The notes under the pieces: generated by a model
The model's database searches: none
What the model was told of the DNA's origin: nothing
What the model saw: the letters and a program-made list of their open reading frames with translations, nothing else
Source: Sphingobacterium composti
GTDB taxonomy: Bacteria > Bacteroidota > Bacteroidia > Sphingobacteriales > Sphingobacteriaceae
NCBI RefSeq assembly: GCF_009829075.1
Contig: NZ_WUQZ01000005.1
Coordinates: forward strand, 1 to 64,000
Length of the DNA: 64,000 nt
Direction: 5' to 3'
Position numbers and translations under genes: made by a program
In this document: positions 172-61,969 of the stretch, piece by piece
Layout of the letters: each line of letters starts with the position of its first letter
Numbering within the stretch: position 1 is the first letter of the stretch

Positions 172-1275
172 GTTACTAAAGAAGACTTAAAACAAAGATC
201 TTATGTTGAAGTAAAAATTAACAATCAAAGATTTAAAGAGTATAATGGAAACATTATAGAAATGGATATACATCCAAACAAAGCCAAAACCATATCGGAA
301 CGTAAAGCCTTATTATCTTTATTAGAACGAGAAATTGCTAAAGCTATAATTAGTCAAAAATATAGGGAGAATAAAACGTCTTCTGTAAAAAGAAATTCTA
401 AAATTACTATCGAACGTGCTTTATCTGAATCATTACAACATAAGATTGATTCTAATATTAGTCCACTATATAAGCGTAATTTAAAGCGCATATACAATTC
501 TTTCAAAGATTTCATGGGAAAATCTATGCAAGAGGAATTCATACATCTGAACGCAGGAGATATTCAAAATTTTTTAAATTCTTTTGTCTCATCAAACACA
601 TATTATATGGACAAGAGAAGGGACTTGGGGGTTCTCGTATCTAAAGCTAATAGTCTTTTCGATATGAGTGTTGATGTAATAAAAAAGACTGATAGAAGAA
701 AACCTAAAAGTGTATTACATCAGATTTATGATGAGAAGCAAATTCACATTATACTGAATTACTTAAAGAATAATAATGTGAATTTATATTTGTGTTGTTT
801 AATTAGTTATGGTTGTTTTTTAAGACCACATAAAGAAATTAGAAAATTAAAGGGTAAGCATTTTAAAAATGATTTCAATGAAATCCACTTATCTGGTGAT
901 GAAAATAAGAGTGGGAGAGTTCGAGTAACTCCAATTCCTAATTATGTTCGTGAAGCTATATATGATAAAGCCAGTAAACTTTTGCCAAATCAAAATCTAT
1001 TTACTGGAACATCCGATTATTTTAATGAAGACTATTTTAGCAAGGCTTGGAATAGATGTGCCAGGAAGATGAAAGAGATAGGAATACTAAATGATAAGCA
1101 AACTATTTATTCTTTCCGACACACAGCCGCAGTCAACGTCTACAAGAAAACAAAAGACTTACATATACTCCAACAGCTTTTAGGACACTCAGATATGATA
1201 GTTACATTAAAATACTTACGAGGTCTTGGAGTTCACAACACAGAAGAATTAAGACATGTAATGCCTGAACTCTAA
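172..1275 (+). pseudogene. Tyrosine recombinase (integrase), 5' end lost to IS insertion
   Basis: Site-specific recombinase of the Bacteroidota island/ICE type. Counting from the ATG at 262 (337 aa), the catalytic residues are R188 (FLRPHKEI), K216, R286 in YSFRHT (the usual HxxR His is Tyr), H309 in LLGHS and Y318. The reading frame is open back to about 172 with integrase-like sequence (SYVEVKINNQRFKEYNG), so the natural protein began further upstream. The IS end at 171 has removed the start codon and promoter. No ATG, GTG or TTG lies in frame before 262, and starting there would drop about 30 residues of the N-terminal arm-type domain. A 50-bp inverted-repeat site follows 3 bp after the stop. 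The gene is probably inactive or altered unless the IS supplies expression signals. Confidence 0.85.
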
Positions 1276-1416: not shown

Positions 1417-2484
1417 ATGGATTATAACATTCAAACAGATTCCGAAAATGACATTTTTGTTGAAGAGTGTCATATTGATGGTGAAGTGGAAATCTCTGAT
1501 GATTTACGCAAATATTTCACACCAAATGATATCACTTACAACACAGTTGCTGGATCTAAATCAAGTGATATATTTGATAGGATCAAAAAGCAACGTGAAA
1601 TTTTAAGGATTGTAAATGTAAAATTCCGACTTAAATATATTGAGATTGATGAAGACAATGTTCAATATTTACCTGATTATAATGTTTATGAATTGACATC
1701 ATCTTTACTCTTTAAAAAGAAATGTGATGATTTAAATGAAGAACAGGAAAAACAAGTCCAACCGTTTTTTATTAAACTGGTTCAGCTCTTCGTTTTATAT
1801 AAAGCTGATTACTGGGATGATCATCTTTATAAATTTGAAGAACATATCACTAAGGAAGGATTTAATGAGGATATTGATGAAGTCCACACGTTAAAACAAT
1901 TGTTGGATAAGTGGGAAAACCTGTCGAATGTTGAAGTCTCAATTCGTAAGAAGGATAAATACGGTTCTGTGATAAATTCTGAAAGTCAAAAAGTATTAGA
2001 TCAAGATTTAGAGCTAATACTTAATTCCTATATAAAAACTAAATATTACAATTTCATTAAAGCATATAAGCTTGAAAAGTATATAGCAAAACATGAGGTT
2101 AATGAATTAAAGAAATATTCTCAAGATGTTGAAAAGAAGGAATCACTTACAAACTACGTTTCTGAAGCAATTACCATTTTATATTTCAGAGATATTAAGC
2201 CGTCATTCACATATTCATATTTTGAAGAACTATATGAAATGATTCATAACAATACGCATTTTGATACTAGGTTAACACCTACTTATGAATTTTTAAAGAT
2301 TGTTGTTCCTGCTTTGAATAGATTTATCGAAGATAATGCTATTGAAAAATATAAAAAGAAGGATAAGCATATGTTATTATTTGCAATGCTAAGAGCATTT
2401 GATTTCGTTCCAGACAAGAAAGGATTAGAATTAGATGGTAAAATTGATGTTAAAGAAGATTTTATAAAACAGCTTTTAAGATAG
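1417..2484 (+). CDS. Island protein of unknown function, 355 aa
   Basis: I do not recognise this protein. It is acidic, rich in Lys/Glu/Asp/Tyr, mostly helical in appearance, with no signal peptide, membrane segment or obvious catalytic motif. It starts 89 bp after the integrase/site-1 block and is followed by its own strong terminator, so it is probably a single-gene transcript. It lies between recombination-like sites 1 and 2 together with a 149-aa unknown and a helicase-like protein. That arrangement suggests a mobilisation, replication or control function of the element, but nothing in the sequence proves it. Confidence 0.6.
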   Translation: MDYNIQTDSENDIFVEECHIDGEVEISDDLRKYFTPNDITYNTVAGSKSSDIFDRIKKQREILRIVNVKFRLKYIEIDEDNVQYLPDYNVYELTSSLLFKKKCDDLNEEQEKQVQPFFIKLVQLFVLYKADYWDDHLYKFEEHITKEGFNEDIDEVHTLKQLLDKWENLSNVEVSIRKKDKYGSVINSESQKVLDQDLELILNSYIKTKYYNFIKAYKLEKYIAKHEVNELKKYSQDVEKKESLTNYVSEAITILYFRDIKPSFTYSYFEELYEMIHNNTHFDTRLTPTYEFLKIVVPALNRFIEDNAIEKYKKKDKHMLLFAMLRAFDFVPDKKGLELDGKIDVKEDFIKQLLR

Positions 2485-2659: not shown

Positions 2660-3109
2660 ATGTTATTATCAAACTACAAAAGCTCTAAAGAGCAAAACAA
2701 CAATTCGGTGAAATCTTTGGCGCCGAAATTAATTTCTAAAGAAGATAAATTAGTGTACCAATTTGTTTTCGCTAATAAACATTTTTACACAGGTTCACAT
2801 AAGTCCCTGTCGATTTTAAGAAGAACAACATTCTTAAATCACTGTAAAAATTTAAGCAAAAAACAACTAATCACGTTAGCTCTGTTTTTCAAATCCTTAA
2901 ATGAAGATGGGGTTAAACATATCTCAGAGGTTAGAACAACTAAAACTAACAAACTGAATTACGTAACAGCAATATTTGAAGTTGATGGTAAAACTTATAC
3001 TGAGAATATTTTCACATTCTCAGGTTTTAATAAGTTAGTCTCTTACAGAGGCATTGCTAAATACAATTTATCCCTTAATGGTTTATTAGAAACTGAAACT
3101 AAAAAATAA
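2660..3109 (+). CDS. Island protein of unknown function, 149 aa
   Basis: I do not recognise this protein. It is small and basic, with no signal peptide or membrane helix. The middle part (KNLSKKQLITLALFFKSL) looks helical, and the end (LNYVTAIFEVDGKTYTENIF) looks like a beta hairpin. It is bracketed by two terminator hairpins, so it is probably transcribed alone, about 100 bp upstream of the helicase-like gene. The upstream gap 2546-2659 contains an isolated GGGACACGAA that resembles the left end of the 50-bp island site but has no matching right end. Confidence 0.55.
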   Translation: MLLSNYKSSKEQNNNSVKSLAPKLISKEDKLVYQFVFANKHFYTGSHKSLSILRRTTFLNHCKNLSKKQLITLALFFKSLNEDGVKHISEVRTTKTNKLNYVTAIFEVDGKTYTENIFTFSGFNKLVSYRGIAKYNLSLNGLLETETKK

Positions 3110-3214: not shown

Positions 3215-5050
3215 ATGAAAACTCAAGATATCAAAATCAATAAAAATAAATTCTTATCAAAACTTATTCCTTCTAACTGCATTTTCTTTAAAAATCTTAC
3301 AGGTATTGGAGCAACTCATGTGGAATTAAATATAGCTCAGCGCAATTCGATAGTAATTGAACCATTCGTTCCCGTAATCACTGGTAAATCAATAAATAAT
3401 GATAAAATATTAGGTGTTTATGAAGGTATTACAAAAAAGGATATTGTTAAATATTTACAATCTTATAATGGATTTAAGAAAATTGTATCTACACCAGAAT
3501 CATTTATATCTAAAGTTATTCCAGCTTTTATTGAATTGGGAATCGATTTCCTAAATGAATATTTCTTACTTATTGATGAGTGTGACAGATTAACAAAAGA
3601 CGTAAATTTTAGAGAGCAAATCATTGCTCCTATGGATTACTTCTTTCAGTTTAAAAACAAGGCTTTTGTAAGTGCAACAGCTTTAATCCCAACAGATCCA
3701 AGATTTAAAGAAAATAAATTTAGAATTCAAAATGTTATACCAACATACAATATTGAAAAAAATATCAATGTAATAAATACTAATCATACTTTAAGTGCTT
3801 TAAAATATCGATTAGAAAACGCCAAAGCTGATAAGGTTTTAATTTTCTTGAATAGTGTTTCAGGATCAGCAAGCATAATTAAAACATTAGGTATTGCCGA
3901 TAAATCATCTTTGTTTACCTCTACTGATGCTGTTAAAAATTTTGATAAAGAATATACAGGTGCTAAACCAAGACATCTTTGCTCAGATTTGGATATACGT
4001 AAATTTAGTAAGTATAATTTTCTAACCAGCAGGTACTTTTCTGCCGTTGATATAAAAATCGAGGAAATGGTTGAAATTATCATAGTATCAGACGTCAATA
4101 AATTCCAACACTCCTTAATCGATCCATATGCAGATTTGATTCAAATTATTGGAAGAGTAAGAAATAGCTACTACATCGGCAGCGTAAATTTCATTGTAAA
4201 TCTTGAATCAAAAATTGATTTTGTAGAAAAAGAAGAAATTGAGAAAGCATTTGAATTCGGAGCTAAATTGAGGGAGGTGCTTAAAACAGGATTAATGAGT
4301 ACAGATAATGAAGGAATTAAAAATTTTATAAAAGAGTTTGTTAACATCATGGGAGATAAAGCCTTTTTCAATGATGACTTCACAGATAACCACTTCATGA
4401 AGGATAATTTCAGAAATGAAAATTTTGTTAAGTCCTTATATCAAAATAAAGAAACTTTAATTGGGTACTTAAAATCATTAAAGGTAAGAAATACGGATAA
4501 ATCTTATTTAAATGTTATTGATTCTGAGGAAGTGTACAGAATTAATGATGACACTTTAAAACTTATAAGTGCAAGGAAGCCATTTGATCAAAAATATGAA
4601 GAATTAATTCAGTCTATGAAGAACGTACAAGAAATGAAGAAAGAGAATTTTGAAAAGAAATATCTATTAAATAATTATGAGGAAATCGAAAGACGATTAA
4701 TAAATCAATACAAAGAAATGTATGAAATATTTCTTTCAGAAGGAGAAGAAAAGTTGAGATCAATTGGTAATTCAGAGCATAAGATTAAAAGGTATTACAG
4801 CCTTAATTATGATAATACGCACTTAGATAATATGCCATTAATTAAAGAACTATATCAAGAATTTGAATGTGGGATAGATTATAACCAAACAAAATTGTTA
4901 AATAAATTTCATGAGATTCTGATAAAATATGAACCTACAGCAACCAAGACACTTCATAACCTTAATAGGTTTTACGAATTCTGTATGAAAAAATCAGGCA
5001 GTAAAAGATTTATTAAGTTGCAGAAAGAGAGATTCAATGTAAAAAACTAA
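3215..5050 (+). CDS. SF2 helicase-like protein with degenerate Walker A, 611 aa
   Basis: The order of motifs is that of a superfamily 2 helicase: a P-loop position at residues 29-35 reading TGIGATH, Walker B LLIDECD at about 118-124, motif III SAT at 153-155 and a motif VI-like QIIGRVRN near 310. The Walker A lysine is absent (GAT replaces GKT), so normal ATP binding is doubtful. The C-terminal half is rich in Lys/Glu and looks helical. I recall similar GIGAT/GCGAT proteins in Bacteroidota mobile elements, without a known function. The stop codon abuts site 2 of the 50-bp repeat with no gap. It could be a structural or regulatory helicase relative of the element. Confidence 0.65.
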   Translation: MKTQDIKINKNKFLSKLIPSNCIFFKNLTGIGATHVELNIAQRNSIVIEPFVPVITGKSINNDKILGVYEGITKKDIVKYLQSYNGFKKIVSTPESFISKVIPAFIELGIDFLNEYFLLIDECDRLTKDVNFREQIIAPMDYFFQFKNKAFVSATALIPTDPRFKENKFRIQNVIPTYNIEKNINVINTNHTLSALKYRLENAKADKVLIFLNSVSGSASIIKTLGIADKSSLFTSTDAVKNFDKEYTGAKPRHLCSDLDIRKFSKYNFLTSRYFSAVDIKIEEMVEIIIVSDVNKFQHSLIDPYADLIQIIGRVRNSYYIGSVNFIVNLESKIDFVEKEEIEKAFEFGAKLREVLKTGLMSTDNEGIKNFIKEFVNIMGDKAFFNDDFTDNHFMKDNFRNENFVKSLYQNKETLIGYLKSLKVRNTDKSYLNVIDSEEVYRINDDTLKLISARKPFDQKYEELIQSMKNVQEMKKENFEKKYLLNNYEEIERRLINQYKEMYEIFLSEGEEKLRSIGNSEHKIKRYYSLNYDNTHLDNMPLIKELYQEFECGIDYNQTKLLNKFHEILIKYEPTATKTLHNLNRFYEFCMKKSGSKRFIKLQKERFNVKN

Positions 5051-5470: not shown

Positions 5471-5923
5471 ATGCAACATTTAATGAATGTATCAGAAATT
5501 AAAGTCCAATTTAAACCTAAATTCAAGCTTTCTGAATGTCCTCAAATCAACAACTCTAAGGATGCCTATGAAATTTTAAAACGTGTCTGGGATGAAGGAT
5601 TAATGAGCTTTTTGGAAGAGTTTAAAGTTATACTACTTACTAAAGCGAATAAGGTTTTAGGTGTGGTGGATGTTGGAATGGGAGGTAAAGACTTTGTACC
5701 AGTTGATATGAAAATTATATTTTCTATCACTTTAAAAGCATCTGCATCTAAGATTATTTTAGTCCATAATCATCCATCAGGTAAATTAGAACCTAGTCCA
5801 CAAGACAAAGATATTACGAATAAAGCTGTTGAAGCTGGAAGGGTGCTTGATATTGAGGTGTGTGATCATATTATTGTGTCAGAAGACGGATACTATAGTT
5901 TAAAGGATGATGGATATTTTTAG
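5471..5923 (+). CDS. radC: RadC-like JAB-domain protein, 150 aa
   Basis: It has a JAMM/MPN+ metalloprotease-like fold with the motif LVHNHPSGKLEPSPQDKD, giving metal ligands H99, H101 and D112 and a candidate Glu at about 49-50. The protein is short and lacks the N-terminal helix-hairpin-helix of chromosomal RadC, as is usual for RadC-like proteins on Bacteroidota islands. Despite the historical name, a DNA-repair role is not established for the family. Degraded copies of its 3' end occur at 8849-8926 and 10426-10464, so such genes seem to travel with the island's modules. It is followed by a probable structured RNA. Confidence 0.85.
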   Translation: MQHLMNVSEIKVQFKPKFKLSECPQINNSKDAYEILKRVWDEGLMSFLEEFKVILLTKANKVLGVVDVGMGGKDFVPVDMKIIFSITLKASASKIILVHNHPSGKLEPSPQDKDITNKAVEAGRVLDIEVCDHIIVSEDGYYSLKDDGYF

Positions 5924-6768: not shown

Positions 6769-7302
6769 CTAATCAATTGATTCCAATCCGATAAAAGAAT
6801 CATCATCAATACTAATTTCTTTATAGAAGTTGCTCGGTTTCGACTCAGATTGCATATTTATTTTTTGAGCATCAATTGTGTTAATAATAGATTGATAAGA
6901 ATCATTCTCAAAATTTCTAAAATAATAATTACCTAAAATTTGTAAAGGAATATACTCATAAGCACTTTGGTTGACATCATATTTAAATAGAGCATACAAC
7001 TCAAATCCTCCATCACTAATTTTTGAACTGGTATATTTAATAAGTTCAACTGATTTCAAGTATTGAACATCGATTCCTAAAGATTTATTTGAGTCGGTTT
7101 TCGCACCAATTTTGATAGCTTCCTCTAGAGTTTCTAAAGAAATATATTGAGGTATATCACCTTTCTGATAACCCAAAATATCTTCGTTACTTTCGGGGTT
7201 GTTGTATGAATAAGCACTTCCATTTGGAAGTATAATATAGCTAAGGTTTTTTCTCGACCAAGCTATGTTGTAATGTTTATAGAAAAGGAAGTATTCGGTC
7301 AT
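6769..7302 (-). CDS. Unknown protein, 177 aa, last gene of a nuclease operon
   Basis: I do not recognise this protein. It is soluble, acidic and Tyr/Ser/Asn-rich, without signal peptide or clear motif. It is the third gene of a leftward set: nuclease (8702-7791), CxxC protein (7782-7327), then this gene after 24 bp. Co-transcription with a PD-(D/E)xK nuclease on an island suggests an accessory or immunity role, which is inference from context only. Confidence 0.55.
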   Translation of the reverse strand: MTEYFLFYKHYNIAWSRKNLSYIILPNGSAYSYNNPESNEDILGYQKGDIPQYISLETLEEAIKIGAKTDSNKSLGIDVQYLKSVELIKYTSSKISDGGFELYALFKYDVNQSAYEYIPLQILGNYYFRNFENDSYQSIINTIDAQKINMQSESKPSNFYKEISIDDDSFIGLESID

Positions 7303-7326: not shown

Positions 7327-7782
7327 TTAGGGTCTGCAACATTTACCATCAACATGCTTTACTATCTTATACTGATAGTTTTCATGATAATTTATAGCTC
7401 TTTTTCTCTCCTGACCTTCAAGAACTAAACCTAAATTATTAACTACATTTCCACAATATCCACATCTATAAAAAATTTCCCCTTCATAATAGTTAAAATC
7501 ATCTTCTGCTTCTAAATATCTAATAGATTTTGTATCATCTTTAATGATAATAACACTTTGTAATGGTACAAATTCATTTTCAGCCTCTCTAATAAGTACA
7601 CCTAAAAGAATATGAGGTATAGGCATACTTTCTTTATAAATTTCTCTATACTCTAGTATTAAATCGTCAAAGTTTTCAGTGCTTAATACAATAGTATCTT
7701 CCATAGTAAGTCCCTTATCAAGAATCAGATTTCTTAAATTCAAATAGTTAATTCTTGAAATTGGCACAGTTTCTATTCTCAT
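7327..7782 (-). CDS. Unknown CxxC-containing protein, 151 aa
   Basis: Residues 107-110 are CGYC and the protein ends with C148-C149, which together could form a zinc knuckle (CxxC...CC). The N-terminal two thirds looks like an alpha/beta domain with no recognised family. It lies 8 bp downstream of the nuclease gene, so the two are almost certainly co-transcribed. A DNA- or RNA-binding partner of the nuclease is possible but not shown. Confidence 0.55.
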   Translation of the reverse strand: MRIETVPISRINYLNLRNLILDKGLTMEDTIVLSTENFDDLILEYREIYKESMPIPHILLGVLIREAENEFVPLQSVIIIKDDTKSIRYLEAEDDFNYYEGEIFYRCGYCGNVVNNLGLVLEGQERKRAINYHENYQYKIVKHVDGKCCRP

Positions 7783-7790
7783 ATTAACTT

Positions 7791-8702
7791 TTATCTTAAT
7801 TTATAAAATATCTCTCCTGTTTGTGATGCATGTTGTCTTTTTATTAATAACATTTCACTTAAACCTATTCTACCATCAAAAATCATCATCAAATCTTCAC
7901 CATCCATTAATATCATTTGCTTTGTTATTGGGTTATTGTTTTCTATTCCTTCTTTAGAAAAACCATCTATTGATATGAACAAACCTAAAGTGTTTTTTAA
8001 TTTATTGGTGATCTTACCACCAAACGAATATAAGTCACTAGCAGGAATAAGATTCTTTTGCCATTTAGCTTCTAAAAGAAAGTCTGTGCCATCAAAAGTG
8101 AATGCACCATCAATTTGTTCACCAGAAATTTTAAATGAAGATTTAACTGAAAGTTCGAATAATAAAAATAATTCATTCAATAATTTCTCCAATTGAAAAC
8201 CTCTTTTCTGTTTGTCAGAATTAATAGCGATTTCAAAAAACACAGCTTTAAGTTCATCTAATTTTTGAGAAAAATACATATTTGTTTTAACAATTTGTAT
8301 GTTTTCTTCCCTCTTAGCTTCTGCAATTCTAAGCTGGTCTATTGCGTCAAAATACCCCTTAGTTTGATTTTTCAATTTATTAACTGTTTCCTTGGCTCGT
8401 CTTTTTAGACTACCATCTTTATCAAAATAATCCAAATGAGAAAAATCGTTAAAATTACTTGTCTCTTGAAACAATCTTAATAAATCATTACGGAATATAT
8501 CGGGTCTAGCAACCATTCTATCAATCAAAATTGACACACTCTCTTGCTTAAGTTGTTCTTGCCAATCGATCGTCGATACAATTGTGGAATTTTCAATAGT
8601 TAGTTCAACAAACTTCCGTAAATCCTTTTTGCGCCAGTAAATATTAGATAAAGCATCTTTAAGAGCAATAATTGCTTGTGTTGATATTTTTTGAAAAGCC
8701 AA
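7791..8702 (-). CDS. PD-(D/E)xK restriction-endonuclease-like protein, 303 aa
   Basis: The C-terminal half carries a restriction-endonuclease fold signature: RGFQLEKLLNELF (residues 168-180), then GEQIDGAF with D198 and FLLEAKWQ with E211 and K213. This is the D...ExK pattern of Mrr-like nucleases and predicts DNA cleavage. The N-terminal 150 residues look helical and may sense a target. The start appears to be TTG at 8702; no in-frame ATG precedes it. The gene heads a three-gene leftward operon. The 83-bp repeat that also precedes the helicase-nuclease gene lies 26 bp upstream. A solitary nuclease without a methylase suggests modification-dependent restriction or another defence function (inference). 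Confidence 0.7.
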   Translation of the reverse strand: MAFQKISTQAIIALKDALSNIYWRKKDLRKFVELTIENSTIVSTIDWQEQLKQESVSILIDRMVARPDIFRNDLLRLFQETSNFNDFSHLDYFDKDGSLKRRAKETVNKLKNQTKGYFDAIDQLRIAEAKREENIQIVKTNMYFSQKLDELKAVFFEIAINSDKQKRGFQLEKLLNELFLLFELSVKSSFKISGEQIDGAFTFDGTDFLLEAKWQKNLIPASDLYSFGGKITNKLKNTLGLFISIDGFSKEGIENNNPITKQMILMDGEDLMMIFDGRIGLSEMLLIKRQHASQTGEIFYKLR

Positions 8703-8727
8703 ATTAAATAATTTTTATTAAACTTTA

Positions 8728-8810
8728 GGTTATAAGGCATTCCGTTTCGGAATTACCGCTATGAAGATACGCCAAACTTCATAAATTAAAAATAGTGATG
8801 CTCACAATTT
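8728..8810 (-). repeat. 83-bp direct repeat, copy 1 (shared upstream region)
   Basis: Identical over 83 bp to 13146-13228, with weaker similarity for about 30 bp more. It sits 26 bp upstream of the nuclease start. It contains two palindromes, TATGAAG-N10-CTTCATA (8760-8783) and ATTCCG-TTT-CGGAAT (8739-8753), which could be operators. A shared promoter/operator is inferred. Confidence 0.8.
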
Positions 8811-8848
8811 TCAATTTATTGTAAACAGTTTATCATGCTTTATAGTAA

Positions 8849-8926
8849 GTTGATATAGAGGTTTGTGATCATATTATTGTATCTGAGGATGGATATTATA
8901 GTTTGAAGGATGAATGGTATTTTTAA
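8849..8926 (+). pseudogene. radC 3'-end fragment
   Basis: The frame from 8849 reads VDIEVCDHIIVSEDGYYSLK, then DEWYF and stop, nearly matching the last 25 residues of the intact RadC-like protein at 5471. Stops occur immediately upstream. This is a remnant of a former radC gene, followed at once by a half copy of the 50-bp site. Confidence 0.8.
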
Positions 8927-8928
8927 TA

Positions 8929-8953
8929 ATACCCTTTATAATTTTTAGTCCAA
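8929..8953 (+). repeat. Degenerate right half of the 50-bp site
   Basis: ATACCCTTTATAATTTTTAG followed by TCCAA resembles the core-plus-right-arm of copy 2, but is two bases shorter and has no left arm. It overlaps the last codons of the leftward gene ending at 8945. Confidence 0.5.
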
Positions 8954-9841
8954 ACTATTAATCAAGTCGATATTAAATTTGTCAATTTCATCTGACATAG
9001 CTACAGTTTTAGCTTTTCCTTTAACCATAGTTTCAGAAACAAAAACAATTTGACCTTTTTTGTTTTTGAAATAATCAGACTTGAGTACCCTAAAATGACC
9101 TCTTCTAAAATGTGGAATTTTAGAAATTGGTAAATTATCCTCTGTTATTTTATCTGCAATTTGAATTTTCAGATTTTTAGCTAGTTTATTTTCACTATAA
9201 TCAACATAATCATTTGGAACTCCATCACTAACACAATTAGGAAAACAATTTATGTAAGCTATTGTATTAATAGCTAAGCGAAATATTCTAGAGTGTGTTT
9301 TAGATATTTCATCCTCTTTTTTTATTATCTCTTTGTAGAATTTATCAGACATAAGTCCATAAATTTTTCCATAAGTATAATATAAAGTTAAACTACCATC
9401 ATCCTCAATATTTAGAATAAAAGCATATCCTTCTCCATCAAATGGAACATGTAAGGCGAATTTAAATACAAAGGTTTCTTTAATTTCATTAGAATATATA
9501 TAGGTTATGTCTCTAATTTGCCCATTATTATAAAGATAATTTTTGATCCCATCCAAATCCGCCAATGCGGTCGTTTCAAGAAATTGTCTTAATCCTCTTT
9601 CTACAAAGAATAAATGTAACAAATCACCTTTAGAATCATCTCTCCATAAATCTAAACCTGTAATCGTTAAACTCCTCATATCAAGAGTTTCATCAGGTGC
9701 TAATGGGTTCGATAAAAGATTTCTTTTAATGACAAAATGGATTTGTTCATCTGAAAACTCAGGTGCTAATTTTTTTTGTATACCATAAAGCTCATTCCAA
9801 AAGAATCTAAGTGGTTTACTATAATATTTTTTCTTTCCCAT
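8945..9841 (-). CDS. Unknown island protein with a C-terminal RRGHFR segment, 298 aa
   Basis: The function is not recognised. No signal peptide or membrane helix is visible. The C-terminal region reads IPHFRRGHFRVL and ends with VKGKAKTV. This resembles the RRGHWR...GKGKR pattern I associate with uncharacterised phage and plasmid proteins, including relatives of the anti-CRISPR AcrVA2; the likeness is weak and from memory. It is second in a two-gene leftward unit, 21 bp after the 131-aa DUF2158-like gene. The pair occupies its own module between the half-site at 8929 and site 3 at 10346. Confidence 0.5.
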   Translation of the reverse strand: MGKKKYYSKPLRFFWNELYGIQKKLAPEFSDEQIHFVIKRNLLSNPLAPDETLDMRSLTITGLDLWRDDSKGDLLHLFFVERGLRQFLETTALADLDGIKNYLYNNGQIRDITYIYSNEIKETFVFKFALHVPFDGEGYAFILNIEDDGSLTLYYTYGKIYGLMSDKFYKEIIKKEDEISKTHSRIFRLAINTIAYINCFPNCVSDGVPNDYVDYSENKLAKNLKIQIADKITEDNLPISKIPHFRRGHFRVLKSDYFKNKKGQIVFVSETMVKGKAKTVAMSDEIDKFNIDLINSLD

Positions 9842-9862
9842 AGTATAAGCTTTGATAATTTA

Positions 9863-10258
9863 TTAAATAGCCTCTAACTCTGGAAGTGTTTTATATATAT
9901 ACAAAAACTCATTATCCTTATCAGACCAATATTTACATATGATATATAGAATATCCGCACCTAATGAATATGAATTTATAATCATTTCACTAAAAATATC
10001 TGTATAGAAAAAATAAGTGTACCTTTTGTTGTATACAATACGTCCATTAGTTAGTTCAGTTATTGATTTTCTATCTTTATTTACAAAAACTTTTTGGCGT
10101 ATAAATTTTTTAGGCTTAAATTTTTGATTAATAACTTCATTTGTATCAGAGGAAAAACCAACAATCAACATGATGGGACCTCCCGATTTATCGACAACTT
10201 TAGTTCCTGCTAATAATAAGTTTTCCTCTGTGATTATATCCTTAAAGTTATTAGTCAT
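9863..10258 (-). CDS. DUF2158-like (YodC-type) N-terminus, 131 aa
   Basis: Residues about 17-35 read GTKVVDKSGGPIMLIVGF, resembling the GDxVxLKSGGPxMTV core of the small DUF2158/YodC family, whose function is unknown. The remaining 90 residues are unrelated to that family as I know it. It precedes the 298-aa protein gene by 21 bp and is probably co-transcribed leftward. Upstream, site 3 of the 50-bp repeat lies 87 bp away. The role is unknown. Confidence 0.5.
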   Translation of the reverse strand: MTNNFKDIITEENLLLAGTKVVDKSGGPIMLIVGFSSDTNEVINQKFKPKKFIRQKVFVNKDRKSITELTNGRIVYNKRYTYFFYTDIFSEMIINSYSLGADILYIICKYWSDKDNEFLYIYKTLPELEAI

Positions 10259-10345
10259 TTGTTTTTATTTCCATCTTTTATGAAAAGGAAAACCTTTCTC
10301 AGTTTATTAATTTATTGAATATATAAAATTTTGTAATATTTATCG

Positions 10346-10395
10346 TTGGGCACGAAAATTTTCAAAGGGGTATTAAAGCGGATTTTGAAGTCCAT
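10346..10395 (+). repeat. 50-bp inverted-repeat site, copy 3
   Basis: Left TTGGGCACGAAAA, centre AGGGGTATTA, right GAAGTCCAT. Length is 50 bp. The GGGGTAT core is reversed relative to copies 1 and 2. This copy is the most diverged in the arms. It lies between the DUF2158-like unit and the helicase-nuclease unit. Confidence 0.65.
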
Positions 10396-10425
10396 TTTTT
10401 GAATCTTTTAGAACTAATGGATATT

Positions 10426-10464
10426 AAATATTGAGGTTGTTCATAAAAGTATTGTATCAGAGGG
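10426..10464 (+). pseudogene. Decayed radC 3' remnant
   Basis: The bases ATATTGAGGTTGTTCATAAA then AGTATTGTATCAGAGG follow the radC stretch encoding IEVCDHIIVSED with several substitutions and indels. It starts 31 bp after site 3. Homology is clear by eye over about 37 bp only. Confidence 0.5.
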
Positions 10465-10495
10465 AAGACCTCATTTATTTAAAACGAGGTCTTCT
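10465..10495 (+). terminator. Hairpin in the 10.26-10.59 kb gap
   Basis: GAAGACCTC/GAGGTCTTC stem (10465-10473, 10487-10495) with a 13-nt loop and an imperfect T-rich tail (ATTAATTTTT). Apart from this, site 3 and the radC remnant, the 332-bp gap shows nothing else. Confidence 0.4.
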
Positions 10496-10590
10496 ATTAA
10501 TTTTTCAGGAGCGAATAAAATTTCTTAAGGAGTTTTGATAGGAGAAAAACTAATCAATTAGATATTTCTTCTAATCACTTATAAAATTTA

Positions 10591-13128
10591 CTAACGAATG
10601 TATTTTTCACTATAATTATTTGAAAGTGATTCAATATCAAGACTATGATTAACTAAGAATTCTTGAACTTTTTCGCTAGTGATTGTTCTCAAATCATAGT
10701 CTTTAAACTCTTTTATAAAACCTTTAATTGAAAGTTTTAAATTTTTTAATTTCCCTTTCCTTATAATTTCAACATTATGTGTAAAGTTCGCAACATTAGA
10801 TAACTTTTTAGTTGGGATTATCATATAATATTTTACTTTCGCATCTTTTCCGTATTCTTCTTCAAACCATCCACAATGGTTATTCATTTGACCAGACTCT
10901 GATTTAACAATTTCTGATCTATCTAATTCGACTTCAGACTTACATTCAAAAACAAAATATTCATTTACAGAAACACACCAAAGATTGTCAGGTCCTTTTT
11001 TAATCTCTTTGTCAGGTCTCTCCGAAAGAAAACCTAACAATTCACCAGTTTTTTGGAGCGCTCGTTCAAATTTGTCATGACTAATACCAAAATCTAAATT
11101 AGATAGAATTTCCTCTATTTCTAAAGAAAACTCTGAATAATCCTTGAACTTTAGTATGAAATTTTTAATTCTTTGAATTCTGTCTTCATTTATATAACTA
11201 AGCTTTTTATAAGTAATACCTTCTTTGGGTTTTAATAATTCATAATTTTGACTAAATGCACTTTTCTGCAACTTATTCGCCTCGATTTTACTTTCCTTAT
11301 ATAAAAACCTTGCCTTTAACTGTAAATACCATCCTTTTTCTAATTCATCATCCAAATAGGTATCAATAATTTCTTGAATACATTCTCCTGCTTTACCATA
11401 TTCTCCCATATAATATAGCTTATTTGCTTTTTTCTCAAGCTCATATATTTTATAATTATAAGATACATCATGGTTATCCTCAATCGAATCCATTTCATCA
11501 GTATAATAATCTTTCCAACCTTCATCCCTATTTAAACTTTGCTTAATAAGATCAATTAATTGATTGATGCGATTGTCTTTGTATTTTTCATCATCATCGT
11601 TTGCCATATTGGCTATCTCCAAACCAATATCTATTTGCTTTCTGGTTTGTGCAGAAAAGTACTTATTTGTTTGTGAGCTTTTAATAAATTTTACAAGATC
11701 AGCTCCTATAATTAATATTGCGCTAAAATCTTTTTCACCACGAACACTTCTTCCTAATCCTTGCTCAATTTTTTGAGCTAATTTTATATTAGTATAATCA
11801 CTATTTGCTCTTGACTGTTCTTCATATTTATCAGATAAAGATGTGAAATTCGGTTTTCCATCTAATATTAAAACTCTACAACTTTCATCAGGTAAATCAA
11901 TTCCATCATATCTATTTGCTAATACTAAACAGTTACTAAAATCACCAGACTTAAGTTTTTTTATTTCATTGAATAGATTTGATGTATTGGGAGTTATTGC
12001 TCCTTGATAAAAATACAGTTGAGATTTTACAAATGAAGAAACTAAAGACACAACCCCAAATTTTCTACTTTTATTTGGAGGTGAGAATAATGAAATTACT
12101 CTATCTCTTGTAAGATCATCATGAATTAGTGATGGTAATAATATCATTTTTTCTCCAGACCATTTTTTGTGAATATCTCGTAAAGGTCTTTTAATTGCAT
12201 CAATAGATAAATCTAATCCCTTAATAAAGAAAGAATCATCTTGAGTTGTTGCGGACATTAAGATTCTATTTTTAGCATTTGCAAAAAATGAAAACTTCTC
12301 TATTGGAAGATGAATTGATGATATCTCAATAGAATTCCCTGAAATAAATGCTTGACATTTATTTACATTATCTTTTAATAAAGGCCATGTAAACTTTATA
12401 AAGTTTTCTTCTTTAAAATCTGATAATATACTAATAACTTCATCAGCTTTATCTTCCCATTCCCAATATGGTATAGGAAGGAATGAGTCATTTGATTTAG
12501 TATATAACTCTAAATACGACCCCATACCTTGTTCTTGGAGTGCTGTATCAAATAAATTAAATATTTTTTTATAACAATCCTTTGATTCATTTAAAGAACT
12601 ATCAATTGTTATTGTAAATGAGGACTTAATTGAATCTACACAAGCATGTGCATCATCTAAAACAATTGAACCAATGTTAACACCCTTATTGCCAATACCA
12701 AATATAGATTTTCCGTTAAAAATCTTCTGAACATGCGTTACCAAAATTTTTCTACCATTTAAAAACTCGTCTGGTAACATGTTATCTTTCTCAATTATAC
12801 AAATTGGTATACCGAATTTATTTGCATCTTCAATAGCTTGATTTACTAAATATATATTGGGACATACAAAAACACATGGCCCTTCATTAGAATTAATTTT
12901 TGATTGAAGAATCAATAAACCAATTAGAGTTTTTCCTTCACCTGTATGAAGTTTAATTATTAGATCCTTGTCATCTTTTCTTTCTGTAAACCATTCGTTT
13001 AGAATACTATTTTGAATAGGTCTTAATGGCCCTGTAACACTTCTTCTATCTAAAGTATCGTATATTTCTACGGGATTAAGTTTTTTATTTATAATTGTTT
13101 TATTTAATTTCTTTTTGAAATCTACCAT
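10591..13128 (-). CDS. SF2 helicase fused to a PD-(D/E)xK nuclease-like domain, 845 aa
   Basis: The N-terminal helicase core has a Q-like RPIQNSI, Walker A HTGEGKT (61-67, K66), a Walker B variant VLDDAHA, motif III MSATTQDD, motif V NRYDGIDLPDESCRVLILDG and motif VI QGLGRSVRGEKDF. The last two resemble DinG/XPD-type helicases. After a helical middle with a TPR-like stretch (about 570-640), the C-terminus has GPDNLW (D714) and FVFECK (E728, K730), the spacing of a PD-(D/E)xK nuclease. A helicase plus nuclease on an island, under the same 83-bp upstream repeat as a second nuclease, fits an antiphage or anti-plasmid enzyme. I cannot assign it to a named system; Hachiman-like logic (helicase and nuclease) is only an analogy. 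Confidence 0.75.
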   Translation of the reverse strand: MVDFKKKLNKTIINKKLNPVEIYDTLDRRSVTGPLRPIQNSILNEWFTERKDDKDLIIKLHTGEGKTLIGLLILQSKINSNEGPCVFVCPNIYLVNQAIEDANKFGIPICIIEKDNMLPDEFLNGRKILVTHVQKIFNGKSIFGIGNKGVNIGSIVLDDAHACVDSIKSSFTITIDSSLNESKDCYKKIFNLFDTALQEQGMGSYLELYTKSNDSFLPIPYWEWEDKADEVISILSDFKEENFIKFTWPLLKDNVNKCQAFISGNSIEISSIHLPIEKFSFFANAKNRILMSATTQDDSFFIKGLDLSIDAIKRPLRDIHKKWSGEKMILLPSLIHDDLTRDRVISLFSPPNKSRKFGVVSLVSSFVKSQLYFYQGAITPNTSNLFNEIKKLKSGDFSNCLVLANRYDGIDLPDESCRVLILDGKPNFTSLSDKYEEQSRANSDYTNIKLAQKIEQGLGRSVRGEKDFSAILIIGADLVKFIKSSQTNKYFSAQTRKQIDIGLEIANMANDDDEKYKDNRINQLIDLIKQSLNRDEGWKDYYTDEMDSIEDNHDVSYNYKIYELEKKANKLYYMGEYGKAGECIQEIIDTYLDDELEKGWYLQLKARFLYKESKIEANKLQKSAFSQNYELLKPKEGITYKKLSYINEDRIQRIKNFILKFKDYSEFSLEIEEILSNLDFGISHDKFERALQKTGELLGFLSERPDKEIKKGPDNLWCVSVNEYFVFECKSEVELDRSEIVKSESGQMNNHCGWFEEEYGKDAKVKYYMIIPTKKLSNVANFTHNVEIIRKGKLKNLKLSIKGFIKEFKDYDLRTITSEKVQEFLVNHSLDIESLSNNYSEKYIR

Positions 13129-13145
13129 AATTTATTTTATTGTTT

Positions 13146-13228
13146 GGTTATAAGGCATTCCGTTTCGGAATTACCGCTATGAAGATACGCCAAACTTCAT
13201 AAATTAAAAATAGTGATGCTCACAATTT
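13146..13228 (-). repeat. 83-bp direct repeat, copy 2 (shared upstream region)
   Basis: Perfectly identical to 8728-8810 and placed 18 bp upstream of the helicase-nuclease start, in the same relation to its gene as copy 1. It carries the same two palindromes. Similarity continues more weakly to about 13260. Confidence 0.8.
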
Positions 13229-13352
13229 ATAATTTATTGTTTCACAGTTTGTCATACTTCATGCTTGGTAATACCTACACTTCATAAAAGCACCTAAATC
13301 TTTTTAATAAGTGCTATGCACCCATTAAAAATCTTCAAGCTTTTAGAGTTTG

Positions 13353-13502
13353 GCTCGCCTGCGGATCGCTCAGGCTTCGATGTTGTCACTATTTTTGAAA
13401 CAAAAATACCGCCAACAGTCTTCGTCTATTTCATAGATATCGTTGAATCATGCTTGCGCATTTCTCTTCAACGACCTTCGCTCAACTCGCAGGACGGCGA
13501 GC
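13353..13502. repeat. 150-bp GC-rich inverted-repeat element (MITE-like?)
   Basis: It is bounded by a perfect 7-bp inverted repeat GCTCGCC/GGCGAGC with further imperfect complementarity (CCTGCG/CGCAGG). It is clearly richer in G+C than the DNA on either side. An inner hairpin CGTTGAA/TTCAACG lies at 13441-13473. It codes for nothing convincing; the rightward open frame across it reads into the antisense of the next gene. It could be a small non-autonomous mobile element or dispersed repeat. Confidence 0.5.
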
Positions 13503-13509
13503 AAGACTA

Positions 13510-14463
13510 TCATTTATTGAATAATATTTTTCTCATTTTCAAATATCTTTTCTGCGACGTATCATCATTTAATTTTTTAGGAAAACTATTTAGAATCTTT
13601 TCATATTCTTCACAGCCAATCACTTTGCATATATACGCTTCGTGTATGTAATTTAAGTATCCTACGATATTACTTAAATATGTATGGAAAGCTCTAAAAT
13701 CAATATCAGCATTAATAAAAGTTTCAACATCATGATAGTTTGATTTTATTCTTAATCTATATAAAAAGTTCAAAACCGTTGTTTCAGGAATTGATTTGTA
13801 AATATAATCCCAGTGTCTTTTAGTGAATTTTTTTGTCAATAAACCTTCTTTTGTGTGATATTTTGGATCTTTTTTATCTACACGTTCTCTTTTATGCTCA
13901 GCATTTTGTTCTCGCGTTGATTTAAGCATATTAATTATTTGGTCTTTAGAATCTTGAAGATTTCTAATTTTCGCTAAAGCTTTAAAATTATCTATCTGTT
14001 TAGTTGTATTTTGAATTCCTACATATACAAACTCCTTATAAAGACCTTTACAATAAAAACTTACTGATTTTGGGTAATGGTTATTTTTTATCGAATTATT
14101 GAAGTTTTTAATAGTCTTTTCATGTTGATCAACATCCATTTCTTGTGTATAATGAAAAGCTGTTAATGCTAAATACACTGAATAATAAGCTTGAGGAAAA
14201 TTCCAATGTAAGGAAGATTTATAAAATTCAGAGTCATCAATAAAACTAGTCATGAGAAAAGAATATTCAGTACTCCAAGAATTCCACAACAATTTTCTTA
14301 TTCTATCTAAATCGAGATGTTGTTTATTTTTAAGATTGTTATAATAATTAACATTTTTCAAATTATATCGATCAGTAAAACTTTCTATATAAAAGCTCAA
14401 TGCATGAAATCTGTTGAAAATTATTTGTGAAGGAATTGATTTGTCATTATCTGTATTATTCAT
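13510..14463 (-). CDS. HEPN-like helical protein, 317 aa
   Basis: The protein is almost entirely helical. Two segments recall HEPN proteins: WNFPQAYYSVYLALTAF (87-103), a typical first-helix pattern, and LRIKSNYHD, where R238 and H244 could be the RNase motif Rx4-6H. HEPN proteins are frequent RNases or structural partners in toxin and defence systems. The gene precedes the helicase-nuclease on the same strand, but 381 bp containing a repeat element and the 83-bp upstream region lie between, so the two are separate transcripts. The family call is tentative. Confidence 0.5.
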   Translation of the reverse strand: MNNTDNDKSIPSQIIFNRFHALSFYIESFTDRYNLKNVNYYNNLKNKQHLDLDRIRKLLWNSWSTEYSFLMTSFIDDSEFYKSSLHWNFPQAYYSVYLALTAFHYTQEMDVDQHEKTIKNFNNSIKNNHYPKSVSFYCKGLYKEFVYVGIQNTTKQIDNFKALAKIRNLQDSKDQIINMLKSTREQNAEHKRERVDKKDPKYHTKEGLLTKKFTKRHWDYIYKSIPETTVLNFLYRLRIKSNYHDVETFINADIDFRAFHTYLSNIVGYLNYIHEAYICKVIGCEEYEKILNSFPKKLNDDTSQKRYLKMRKILFNK

Positions 14464-14738: not shown

Positions 14739-14741
14739 AAG

Positions 14742-14815
14742 TGCTCCCAACTGGGCTCGAACCAGTGACCAAAAGATTATGAGTCTTCTACTCTAACCAA
14801 CTGAGCTATAGGAGC
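14742..14815 (-). tRNA. tRNA with CAT anticodon (Met elongator or Ile2)
   Basis: A complete 74-nt cloverleaf: acceptor GCTCCTA/TGGGAGC with discriminator A, D arm GCTC/GAGT, anticodon stem GAAGA/TCTTT with loop CTCATAA, and T arm ACTGG-TTCGAGC-CCAGT. CCA is not encoded. C4-G69 and C5-G68 in the acceptor stem are features used by the lysidine synthetase TilS on tRNA-Ile2, so this may be tRNA-Ile(k2CAU) and not tRNA-Met. Its 3' end faces the island, the usual side for integration. Confidence 0.9.
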
Positions 14816-39136: not shown

Positions 39137-39931
39137 ATGGAATGGTTGTCTGATCCACAAATTTGGATCTCATTTTTAACATTAACAGTATTGGAGATTG
39201 TTTTAGGCATTGATAACATTGTCTTTATCTCTATTCAAAGTGCTAAACTCCCTGTCGAGCAACAAAAAAAAGCTAGACAAATAGGCTTATTGTTGGCTTT
39301 AGTAATGCGTGTCGCACTATTGTTTTCAATTAAGTGGGTGATGGGATTAACAGCTCCACTAGTTAATTTTTCCGAATGGTTTAATATCACTAATGAGCAA
39401 TATGCGCCATATTTGATCCTATCAGGAAGGGATTTAATATTGTTTATTGGAGGTTTATTTTTAATTTACAAGAGTACGACAGAAATCCATCACAAGGTAG
39501 AAGGTCATGTTGAAGCTACAGGTGCTAATGCAAAAGTAGTTACGTTTTCTTCAGTTATTATCCAGATTATAATTTTGGATTTAGTCTTTTCTTTAGATTC
39601 GGTGATTACAGCGGTTGGTATGGTCGATCAGATTGGCGTTATGATTGCTTCTGTTATTGTAGCAGTTGGTATAATGCTTGTATCAGCAGAAGCGATTAGT
39701 AGTTTTGTGAATAATCATCCTACGGTGAAAATGCTAGCTTTAGCTTTCTTACTGCTTATAGGTGTGTCACTGACAGCAGAAGCATTTGATCAACATATTC
39801 CAAAAGGCTATATCTATTTTGCAATGGCATTTTCAGTTTTAGTGGAGTTTTTAAATATTAAAGCTATGAAGAAAGCATTAAAAAGTGAGAATGCAAGAAT
39901 TGTGAAGGAAAATGAAATTTCAAAAAATTAG
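39137..39931 (+). CDS. TerC-family integral membrane protein, 264 aa
   Basis: Seven to eight membrane segments with the TerC acidic motifs LEIVLGIDNIVFI and LDLVFSLDSVITAVG. The family includes Alx and MeeF/MeeY manganese exporters, so metal export during or after secretion is plausible. The tail is charged (LKSENARIVKENE). Follows apt by 25 bp and ends in a shared convergent terminator. Confidence 0.9.
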   Translation: MEWLSDPQIWISFLTLTVLEIVLGIDNIVFISIQSAKLPVEQQKKARQIGLLLALVMRVALLFSIKWVMGLTAPLVNFSEWFNITNEQYAPYLILSGRDLILFIGGLFLIYKSTTEIHHKVEGHVEATGANAKVVTFSSVIIQIIILDLVFSLDSVITAVGMVDQIGVMIASVIVAVGIMLVSAEAISSFVNNHPTVKMLALAFLLLIGVSLTAEAFDQHIPKGYIYFAMAFSVLVEFLNIKAMKKALKSENARIVKENEISKN

Positions 39932-39938
39932 ATAAAAC

Positions 39939-39969
39939 AAAAATGGTTAGCTTTCGCTAACCATTTTTG
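39939..39969. terminator. Bidirectional terminator between terC and alkaline phosphatase genes
   Basis: AAAATGGTTAGC/GCTAACCATTTT stem with a 4-nt loop, T-runs both ways. Confidence 0.85.
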
Positions 39970-39974
39970 TTTTA

Positions 39975-41384
39975 CTAAAAATTCAATTGGGCAGCTTGTG
40001 CTATTTTTTTAGGAATATCTGTATTATCCATCTTGTGATTGAATAATTCAGCACCTTCACCGATTGCATAAACCGGCACATAAGCACCTGAGTGTCCTCC
40101 AGAGGCCCAACCTAAGGATGCCAAACGATTTAAAATACTTATACTTAAAGATGCAATTTTGTCATCATTAGCATATAAACTTTTCGAAGTTTCATTTTCA
40201 TGATTTACAAAGCTTTTTTCGTAAGCTTTATGTAACTCTTTTTCATCTTTTTCAGAAACTTTCACAGCAGCAAAAAGTCCTGTATTTTCACTAATCAAAG
40301 TTTTTACATCTTCCCAAGTAGCATTAGGCTTCTCTTTTCTCAAATTGCCTATTAAAGCTGAAAGAGATCCTTGAGAAATTTTTTGATGACTTAAAATTTT
40401 AGTATTCAATGTCGAAGAACCGTTACCAACCGCAAGCCCGCCAGTTTCATGATCTGCTGTTACAACTATTAATGTTTCTTTGGGATATTTTTGATAGAAT
40501 TCGTATGCCAGTTGAATCGTTTTATAAAAATCTAAAACCTCTTTTAATGTAGTTGCACCATCATTCGCATGTGAAGACCAGTCTATTTTACCACCTTCTA
40601 CCATTAAAAAGAAGCCCTTATTGTTATTATGACTTAATTTTTTAATAGCACCACGGGTAATATCTTCCAAAGACATATCATTCGCATTTTGATCGATTGC
40701 ATATTTTAAAGATTCACTACTTTCAGACTTTTCATTCAACCAAACTACTTTTTTACCCTCATATGTGGAGTTTGAAAATGCGCTTTTTCCACGTACAATT
40801 GTATATCCCTTTTTCTCAATTTCTTTATGTACATCTACTACTTCTTTTTTATCATAAGTGGTAGTAGGTTTTAAAAATCCAGCACCCGCAAACAAATCAA
40901 ATCCAGAAGCAGGAATCTCAGATGCAATTTCGTAATAATTGTTGCGACTTGGCTGATGGGCATAAAATGAAGCTGGTGTCGCATGGTCAACACTTACACT
41001 TGTAGTGATACCCACTTTCAAACCTTTTTCTTTAGCAGCGAATGCAATGCTTTTATAAGGTGTAGTACCTAAACTATCAGTTCCGATATTCCCATTTCTG
41101 GTTTTTTTACCCACTGCTAATGCCGTACCTCCAGCACCAGAGTCTGTTACTCCGTGCGAAAGTGAATTAGTGGATGCAAATCCAACGTAAGGGAAGTTTG
41201 ATAAAAGTTGAGGTTGGTAACCAATTTTACCTTTGGATTCTGCTAAATAAATTTCAGAAAGATTTACATGGTTTAGTCCCATTCCATCACCTATAAGATA
41301 AAAGATGTATTTTGGTTGACCATAACTTAGTGCAGCACAGCATAAAGAAAAGAATATTGTGGCTACAATCGATTTGTATTTCAT
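39975..41384 (-). CDS. Exported alkaline phosphatase (PhoA-type), 469 aa
   Basis: Signal peptide MKYKSIVATIFFSLCC...SYGQ. Metal and catalytic motifs: FYLIGDGMGLNH (Asp), HGVTDSGAGGTALAVG (nucleophile Ser), SVDHATPASFYAH, VEGGKIDWSSHAND, VTADHETGGL and SGGHSGAYVPVYAIG. It is a periplasmic phosphomonoesterase. The ATG at 41384 is chosen because the signal peptide begins there; an upstream TTG would add nine hydrophilic residues. No Pho box could be judged. Confidence 0.93.
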   Translation of the reverse strand: MKYKSIVATIFFSLCCAALSYGQPKYIFYLIGDGMGLNHVNLSEIYLAESKGKIGYQPQLLSNFPYVGFASTNSLSHGVTDSGAGGTALAVGKKTRNGNIGTDSLGTTPYKSIAFAAKEKGLKVGITTSVSVDHATPASFYAHQPSRNNYYEIASEIPASGFDLFAGAGFLKPTTTYDKKEVVDVHKEIEKKGYTIVRGKSAFSNSTYEGKKVVWLNEKSESSESLKYAIDQNANDMSLEDITRGAIKKLSHNNNKGFFLMVEGGKIDWSSHANDGATTLKEVLDFYKTIQLAYEFYQKYPKETLIVVTADHETGGLAVGNGSSTLNTKILSHQKISQGSLSALIGNLRKEKPNATWEDVKTLISENTGLFAAVKVSEKDEKELHKAYEKSFVNHENETSKSLYANDDKIASLSISILNRLASLGWASGGHSGAYVPVYAIGEGAELFNHKMDNTDIPKKIAQAAQLNF

Positions 41385-61899: not shown

Positions 61900-61923
61900 A
61901 ATATTTTTCTGTGCTAAGGAGAT

Positions 61924-61962
61924 ATATAGAGCGTATTTGATATTATCAAGTACGCTCTATAT
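61924..61962. terminator. Bidirectional terminator
   Basis: ATATAGAGCGTA/TACGCTCTATAT 12-bp stem with TTGA/TCAA inside, between convergent genes. Confidence 0.75.
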
Positions 61963-61969
61963 ATTTAAA

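Follow-up and report, generated by a model that had tools for sequence, protein, structure and literature searches.

A folded element of about 360 bp precedes changing genes in a tRNA-integrated island of Sphingobacterium composti

In a stretch of 64,000 nucleotides (nt) from Sphingobacterium composti (contig NZ_WUQZ01000005.1, positions 1 to 64,000; the window), the same 83 bp stand before two genes that are unrelated to each other, which raises the question of what this repeat is and what it does there. Its copies at 13146-13228 (copy 1) and 8728-8810 (copy 2) are identical in 83 of 83 bp and are both read on the minus strand. Copy 1 lies 18 bp before the ATG (13128) of a gene for 845 amino acids (aa), and copy 2 lies 26 bp before the TTG (8702) of a 303-aa gene. 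An earlier note, made from the letters alone, had described this perfect leftward repeat and its two distances, and both its coordinates and the identity were borne out. An exact 83-mer found twice in 64 kb is far beyond chance, and the complete identity rules out a chance repeat; it probably reflects a recent duplication or conversion.

The repeat is not itself the unit. It is the 3' end of a larger structured element of about 360 bp, which very probably belongs to a mobile island and around which genes are, on the sequence comparisons below, probably swapped. As a whole explanation we propose a structured leader or non-coding RNA (ncRNA) of this island, behind which promoterless cargo is captured, and we regard that explanation as an even call.

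A folded element of about 360 bp

BLAST similarity between the two copies continued beyond the 83 bp, with 90% identity over about 134 bp (8708-8840 and 13127-13259). When 13140-13504 (365 bp) was used as the query, full-length relatives in the genus ended near 13146-13150 on the gene side and at 13502-13504 on the far side, were about 360-390 bp long and showed 71-92% identity. The element was divided into three domains, D1 to D3 (Table 1), and 25 full copies out of 38 genus loci were aligned. In D1, 11 of 45 pairs had changes on both sides. In D3, 93.4% of the alignment cells were paired and 18 of 35 pairs had changed on both sides; of 500 shuffles, none reached this level on four of the five measures and a single one did on the fifth, while all six slid controls were far lower, with 35-50% paired. 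The compensatory changes thus exceed the controls, and a folded single strand is well supported, since both tested domains covary and the sense strand is favored as described below.

The earlier note had seen two palindromes in each copy and had proposed a shared promoter/operator, which would be bound as double-stranded DNA by an island repressor. The ATTCCG/CGGAAT palindrome was mostly kept (91.2% of cells paired) and the TATGAAG/CTTCATA palindrome was not (67.8%). Neither covaried, and together they scored like shuffles, and a palindromic operator was rejected on these grounds. The conserved D3 structure is a longer imperfect hairpin in which the palindrome bases are used with other partners. 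A constant region before changing genes would suit an ordinary promoter/operator, as would the last ~50 nt of the element, which by eye look best conserved. However, the compensatory changes in D3 and D1 indicate a folded single strand and not operator half-sites, and the unit is a ~360-bp folded part of a mobile element, far longer than an operator. We therefore consider this alternative quite improbable.

The folded strand is likely RNA rather than DNA, judging from the sequence bias between the strands. Consensus folding energies for sense and antisense were -44.0 and -38.1 for D1, -13.2 and -4.0 for D2, and -17.2 and -4.7 for D3. In structures derived from the antisense strand without G-U pairs, the sense strand had 32 G-T cells versus 10 A-C cells. 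The element resembles the structured RNAs of Rfam in its covarying multi-hairpin form, but no Rfam family matched it: at the gathering threshold only tRNAs were found in the 12 loci scanned, and what matched in window positions 13040-13620 were unrelated families at no better than chance (E 1 to 5).

Copy 2 keeps just the last ~115-130 bp of the element, i.e. hairpin D3, and D1 and D2 are gone; the D1 covariance model found no match at this locus up to E 5. Either D3 is able to stand alone before a gene or copy 2 is a decaying remnant. The same genome holds the element in two more places, complete at C2:16598-16952 and without the gene-side ~65 bp at C4:40769-41071. At locus L096, about 1.2-1.3 kb separate the gene-side and far parts of the element, and several radC end fragments lie nearby.

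Matches to the gene-side part, some of them partial, came from 33 of the 93 genomes sampled for the genus, mostly named Sphingobacterium; the sample also takes in records named Parapedobacter sp. and Rhinopithecimicrobium. The family and class samples were drawn subsets. With the 365-bp query, 64 of 399 family genomes matched, many over short stretches. The D1 covariance model detected 39 of 93 genus genomes with 1-3 copies per positive genome, 84 of the 301 genomes in a family sample (spread over 12 of 25 genera) with up to 6 copies, and 11 of 295 class genomes, of which five lay outside the family with 30-53 bits. The exact D1 pattern was present in 38 stretches from named genomes: 29 came from Sphingobacteriaceae (26 Sphingobacterium, 2 Parapedobacter, 1 Rhinopithecimicrobium) and 9 from unrelated taxa. 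No viral contig contained this pattern, and the element was without any match in the plasmid and phage collections.

Changing genes behind a constant element

The 38 genus loci were set in one orientation, and placement was counted in the 33 with an intact gene-side end (L006, L075, L084, L086 and L093 lack it). A same-strand open reading frame (ORF) of at least 90 aa started within 150 nt behind the element in 26 of the 33 copies; for points placed at random the share was 14.7% between genes and 6.5% anywhere in the same loci. By a looser count, the same-strand ATG of a 90-aa ORF followed at 9-119 nt in 28 copies, and in 17 the cargo start was only 9-29 nt away. The earlier note had held that a repeat at random positions would be a dispersed repeat and not an upstream region. 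Within the genus, this upstream placement rules out a randomly placed dispersed repeat, and listing the following genes across the genus gave a constant region before changing genes.

These genes are mutually unrelated. From 34 listed downstream proteins, near-identical, fragmentary and late-starting ones were dropped and 24 were scanned. Defence-type domains were found in 11: the helicase PDC-S28, GmrSD (twice), an N6 methylase, RelA/SpoT with PDC-S33, NACHT, SIR2, AAA_21 with AbiLi, AAA_15 (twice, one of them, at L087, with a PADLOC match to AriA/PtuA) and Schlafen AlbA_2. The other 13 comprised one antitoxin-like SocA/Panacea protein, seven without a family, and five that gave domains of unknown function and an SprT-like match below the cut-off. 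PADLOC matched 8 of the 10 downstream proteins scanned with it. For the 303-aa protein behind copy 2, which the earlier note had called a PD-(D/E)xK nuclease, an endonuclease-like LLEAKW motif can be seen by eye, but Pfam gave no nuclease match.

A NADAR-like gene behind the element at L073 (to relR +600) is seemingly broken by a frameshift. Another NADAR-like gene lies downstream of the full element in C2:8000-26000 of the same genome as the window (L005), where relaxase-, primase-, integrase- and RteC-like ORFs were recognized nearby by eye.

Exchange was assessed in 15 locus pairs, hand-chosen and not random, which were compared in 40-column steps. In five pairs (L076/L082, L078/L082, L005/L067, L080/L074 and L080/L081) the element was alike along its length and both immediate flanks were unrelated. 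Another five (L091/L095, L074/L077, L076/L078, L073/L079 and L068/L070) had some upstream sequence in common and not the gene. The gene was shared in the remaining five. In two of these, the window with L090 and L071/L075, the genes resembled each other much more closely than the elements did, an indication of exchange; in L069/L070 gene and element were both alike. Because the flanks change while the element stays, each of its ends is a border beyond which the sequence varies. These comparisons support the second possibility offered by the earlier note, a landing pad at which cargo is swapped.

The island and its helicase-fold protein

The window element lies in a genomic island of the tRNA-integrating kind, with a tyrosine integrase and tRNA borders, found in Sphingobacteriaceae. 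Its features are collected in Table 1.

Table 1. Features of the element and its island in the window
Feature	Position	Strand	Evidence or remark
Tyrosine integrase of the island	262..1275	+	Phage_integrase 4.2e-12; PHROG integrase
355-aa backbone ORF	1417..2484	+	Homologue in 6/93 genus genomes at E <= 1e-5
149-aa backbone ORF	2660..3109	+
611-aa protein, SF2 (DEAD-box-like) helicase fold, element-linked backbone gene	3215..5050	+
radC (JAB domain), convergent border of the cargo zone	5471..5923	+
177-aa ORF, cargo 2	6769..7302	-	No Pfam family
151-aa ORF, cargo 2	7327..7782	-	No Pfam family
Cargo gene 2, 303 aa, restriction-endonuclease-like by eye (LLEAKW)	7791..8702	-	No Pfam nuclease match
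Truncated element, D3 only, holds copy 2 (8728-8810)	8708..8840	-	BLAST; no D1 match
Copy of the radC 3' end, adjoining the truncated element	8850..8925	+	BLAST, 87% to 5847-5922
298-aa ORF	8945..9841	-	No Pfam family; homologue directly behind the element in L079
131-aa ORF, cargo 1	9863..10258	-	No Pfam family
Cargo gene 1, 845-aa helicase	10591..13128	-	ResIII, DEAD, Helicase_C_2; PADLOC PDC-S28, 1052 bits
Full element (~360 bp)	13146..13504	-	Near-constant BLAST ends in relatives, covariance model, alignments
83-bp repeat copy 1: 3' arm and loop of hairpin D3 with the gene-side element end	13146..13228	-
D3, 3'-most domain	~13146-13302	-
D2, middle domain	~13281-13361	-
D1, 5'-most domain	13352-13504	-	Covariance model match, 185.4 bits
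317-aa ORF (gene A side), ending just before the element	13510..14463	-
tRNA-Met, presumed integration end of the island	14741..14815	-

Read from tRNA-Met, the order is 317-aa ORF, element, helicase, 131-aa ORF, 298-aa ORF and the radC end fragment with the truncated element, followed by the 303-, 151-, 177- and 168-aa ORFs, radC, the 611-aa protein, the 149-aa and 355-aa ORFs and the integrase. Judged from its sequence and position, the radC-end copy is what remains of a former radC end, a scar left at a cargo junction; a second junction of a radC end with the element was present in L006. The gene order recurs: in 21 windows of 20 kb, our own included, the 611-aa homologue was found in 11, radC in 12 and the integrase in 9. 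In Pfam scans none of the 13 island ORFs matched a relaxase, as would be expected of an integrative mobilizable or conjugative element of known type; the 355- and 611-aa proteins had no match and the 149-aa protein only a sub-threshold one. Among the five backbone proteins, only the integrase and RadC matched phage families in PHROGs.

In four of the 21 windows (L187, L188, L192 and L196) the 3' end of the tRNA recurred past the backbone genes, as a copy of 46-92 nt with 97-100% identity. Counted from the start of the tRNA to the end of its copy, these islands measure about 11.1, 11.7, 13.0 and 14.2 kb; L188 has such a copy and no match to the integrase of our window. A tRNA gene and a 3'-end copy also stood at opposite borders in L069 and L098. 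Five more windows had an intact tRNA-Lys 0.3-0.4 kb past the integrase, copies having been sought beyond the backbone genes. In our window only the tRNA-Met border is visible, because the contig begins at base 1. A tRNA gene lay upstream on the same strand, at 0.15-6.7 kb, in 22 of the 38 genus loci.

Other small repeats occur in these islands. A hairpin of ~50 bp of the TTGGACACGAAAATTTACAT..GGAGTCCAA type was found at window positions 1283, 5055, 10351 and 14503 (plus strand, start of the CACGAAA core), twice just past a stop codon (integrase and 611-aa gene), and in other genomes relatives occur a short way in front of the element; these hairpins are possibly terminators or exchange sites of the islands. 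A second hairpin, CCCACTCACGAAACCCTCCAAGTTTCAAGTGAGTGGG with its variants, closes the cargo zone in 15 of 18 loci (one partially) whose places were picked from BLAST hits, e.g. at relR +1632 in L072, and one of this type directly precedes the tRNA-Lys 3'-end copy in L098. Between the tRNA and the element, L091 and L095 each carry two serial short tRNA-Ser 3'-end copies, which may stem from repeated integrations. Elsewhere in the window, the strong palindromes at 61922-61964 (93%) and 39928-39978 (88%) are probably terminators.

The 611-aa protein is linked to the element in both position and occurrence. In the family sample, 40 of 82 matches lay within 15 kb of D1; all 40 were on the 3' side of D1 and 38 on the opposite strand (82 of 85 rows were used, three second fragments of split genes being left out). 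The protein was found in 71 genomes, in 44 of them together with D1, so that 44 of 84 D1 genomes had it versus 27 of 217 genomes without D1 (Fisher p 4e-12, assuming that both searches drew the same 301 genomes). Its structural model (predicted local distance difference test, pLDDT, 87.9) has a core of helicase superfamily 2 (SF2). The best VIA-align match was eIF4A1 (Z 20.4, root-mean-square deviation 4.0, 314 aligned), and the rows cover mainly model residues 1-441. DEAD-box RNA helicases lead the list with BLM/RecQ, DinG and RIG-I close behind; since all of these score high, the substrate of the protein is not decided. In the consensus of the window protein and 20 of 27 listed homologues (partial or odd ones were left out), DECD, SAT and QIxGRFR-type motifs were present by eye, but Walker A (GxGKT) was not complete and read TGIGATT. 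The Walker A lysine thus seems to be replaced, which makes the activity of the protein uncertain.

The fixed side and relative strand with respect to the 611-aa gene also bear on a dispersed, self-moving small repeat that inserts near genes, similar to miniature inverted-repeat transposable elements or repetitive extragenic palindromes. Sharp ends and the four places in the same genome would suit such a repeat. However, it would not account for that fixed arrangement or for the upstream placement in the genus, copies are few, and neither plasmids nor phages gave a match; we consider it very improbable indeed.

Leader RNA or DNA site

Where the cargo starts only 9-29 nt behind the element, as in 17 of 33 copies, the gap is presumably too short for a separate promoter, which would imply transcription through or out of the element and favors a structured leader RNA. 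The islands begin with the tRNA, gene A and the element, continue with cargo B, radC and the SF2-helicase-like protein, and end with the integrase and the tRNA copy. In the proposed mechanism, the gene-sense strand would be the folded strand and would be made as RNA. This RNA would have been a component of the mobile element first and would then give captured promoterless genes their expression; taken by itself, that supply of expression falls slightly below an even chance. The last ~50 nt of the element would likely provide the homology for cargo exchange. In the window, capture would have taken place twice, with the second cargo, the 303-aa gene, keeping D3 alone beside the leftover radC end.

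Several observations weigh against the leader reading. In the genus, 7 of the 33 copies failed the strict gene test, and the defence share of 11 in 24 stands without a background control, PADLOC having covered 10 of the 24. The pairs L081/L085 and L087/L101 gave no evidence of exchange, as gene and element have diverged about equally. In 9 of the 21 windows no backbone gene was found, so that decayed islands are common. The helicase gene was missing from 40 of the 84 D1 genomes, and 42 of its 82 matches had no D1 within 15 kb. The strand test is weak if every column pair contributes a single count (20 G-T versus 9 A-C, p 0.06). By eye there is no clear promoter of the Bacteroidota type in the element, only a lone stretch in D1 that resembles TAnnTTTG and has no clear -33 partner.

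Copies outside the genus weigh against it further. There the element runs some hundred nt beyond D1 and is longer than in the genus. Among 51 further D1 copies, 49 of them in other genera (51 of 52 were used, a 24.6-bit match being left out), a sense ORF started within 150 nt of D1 in only one, and 31 had no 90-aa sense ORF within 1.5 kb. In 10 of 23 loci a divergent gene started at most 110 nt from the 5' end of the element. The description of the repeat as an upstream region of genes therefore stands for the genus and not as a general role: most further copies lack a close sense gene, so the leader role is proposed for the genus only. In genome G116, D1 accompanies a different type of element, with XRE, SymE, primase-like and two tyrosine recombinase genes. 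Its loci L105 and L184 hold ~7-kb units that recur and contain XRE, SymE-like and primase/ATPase-like genes as well as a pair of tyrosine recombinase genes; next to these units lie D1 and Rhs C-terminal tips, the latter accompanied by putative immunity genes. The arrangement looks like a module exchanger of Rhs loci. In the genome of the window, the G116 recombinase has only weak relatives.

The chief rival to the leader RNA is a role as DNA: a replication or transfer origin, a packaging site or a folded single-strand recombination site, on which the SF2-helicase-like protein or a recombinase would act. Cargo would then adjoin the element because cargo zones border such fixed sites. The orientation-locked link to the helicase gene agrees with this, as does D1 beside paired tyrosine recombinases in G116 and, with a weak match of 33 bits, beside related recombinases in G535. 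Similarity breaks at both element ends, at the 40-column resolution used, the structure could work as single-stranded DNA, and the lack of a clear promoter by eye also suits this role. On the other hand, the folding energies and the excess of G-T over A-C cells (weak by column) favor the sense strand, ORF starts follow closely on the same strand in 26 of 33 copies, and differing helicase and primase types lie near the same fold. We consider a DNA role somewhat unlikely. Less probable again is a bolder form of the leader RNA proposal, in which a new structured RNA family and the linked DEAD-box-like protein would form a ribonucleoprotein of an undescribed mobile-element family and the leader would be a common switch for every captured defence gene.

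The carrier is of a known kind, a tRNA-integrated island with defence-type cargo. Such islands and satellites include kinds such as PICI, PICMI and P4-like elements. In layout, the islands described here share with them an integrase of the tyrosine type at one end, borders with tRNA 3'-end copies (four windows, 11.1-14.2 kb) and variable, often defence-type cargo. They differ in the constant structured element inside the cargo zone and in having phage families only for two of five backbone proteins. Integrons, which express captured cassettes from the promoter Pc and recombine at attC sites with the R-box core RYYYAAC...GTTRRRY, work alike in combining a fixed, possibly expression-giving region with exchanged genes, and they share folded single strands and tyrosine recombinases, which lie near D1 in two lineages. 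However, the D3 arms TATGACAAAC / GTTTGGCGTA (GACAAAC/GTTTGGC) do not fit the consensus RYYYAAC/GTTRRRY, the window integrase matched general integrase models in the Pfam and PHROGs scans, and the exchange looks homologous. Defence-associated ncRNAs are known from retrons, defence-associated reverse transcriptases (DRT), type III toxin-antitoxin systems and AbiF RNA. They likewise place a structured RNA-like element before defence genes, but here many unrelated genes follow one element. A retron or DRT was rejected for the same genome, where the three RVT_1 matches lie on C16, C18 and C67 and the element copies on C45, C2 and C4.

In the part of the open-access literature that was searched, we found no description of the element or of its mobile-element family. 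The element thus marks a family of mobile elements in Sphingobacteriaceae for which that literature yielded no account, and it is possibly a regulatory RNA of a new kind, from which captured genes, to judge from the arrangement of the loci, would receive a start signal. If the bolder proposal were true, a leader switch, e.g. one opening on phage or island activity, would put unrelated, exchanged defences under one control at once. With the D1 covariance model, cargo zones that hold more, as yet unrecognized defence genes can be located. For one group of islands, the element would be a concrete answer to how newly acquired defence genes come to be expressed and regulated in a new host.

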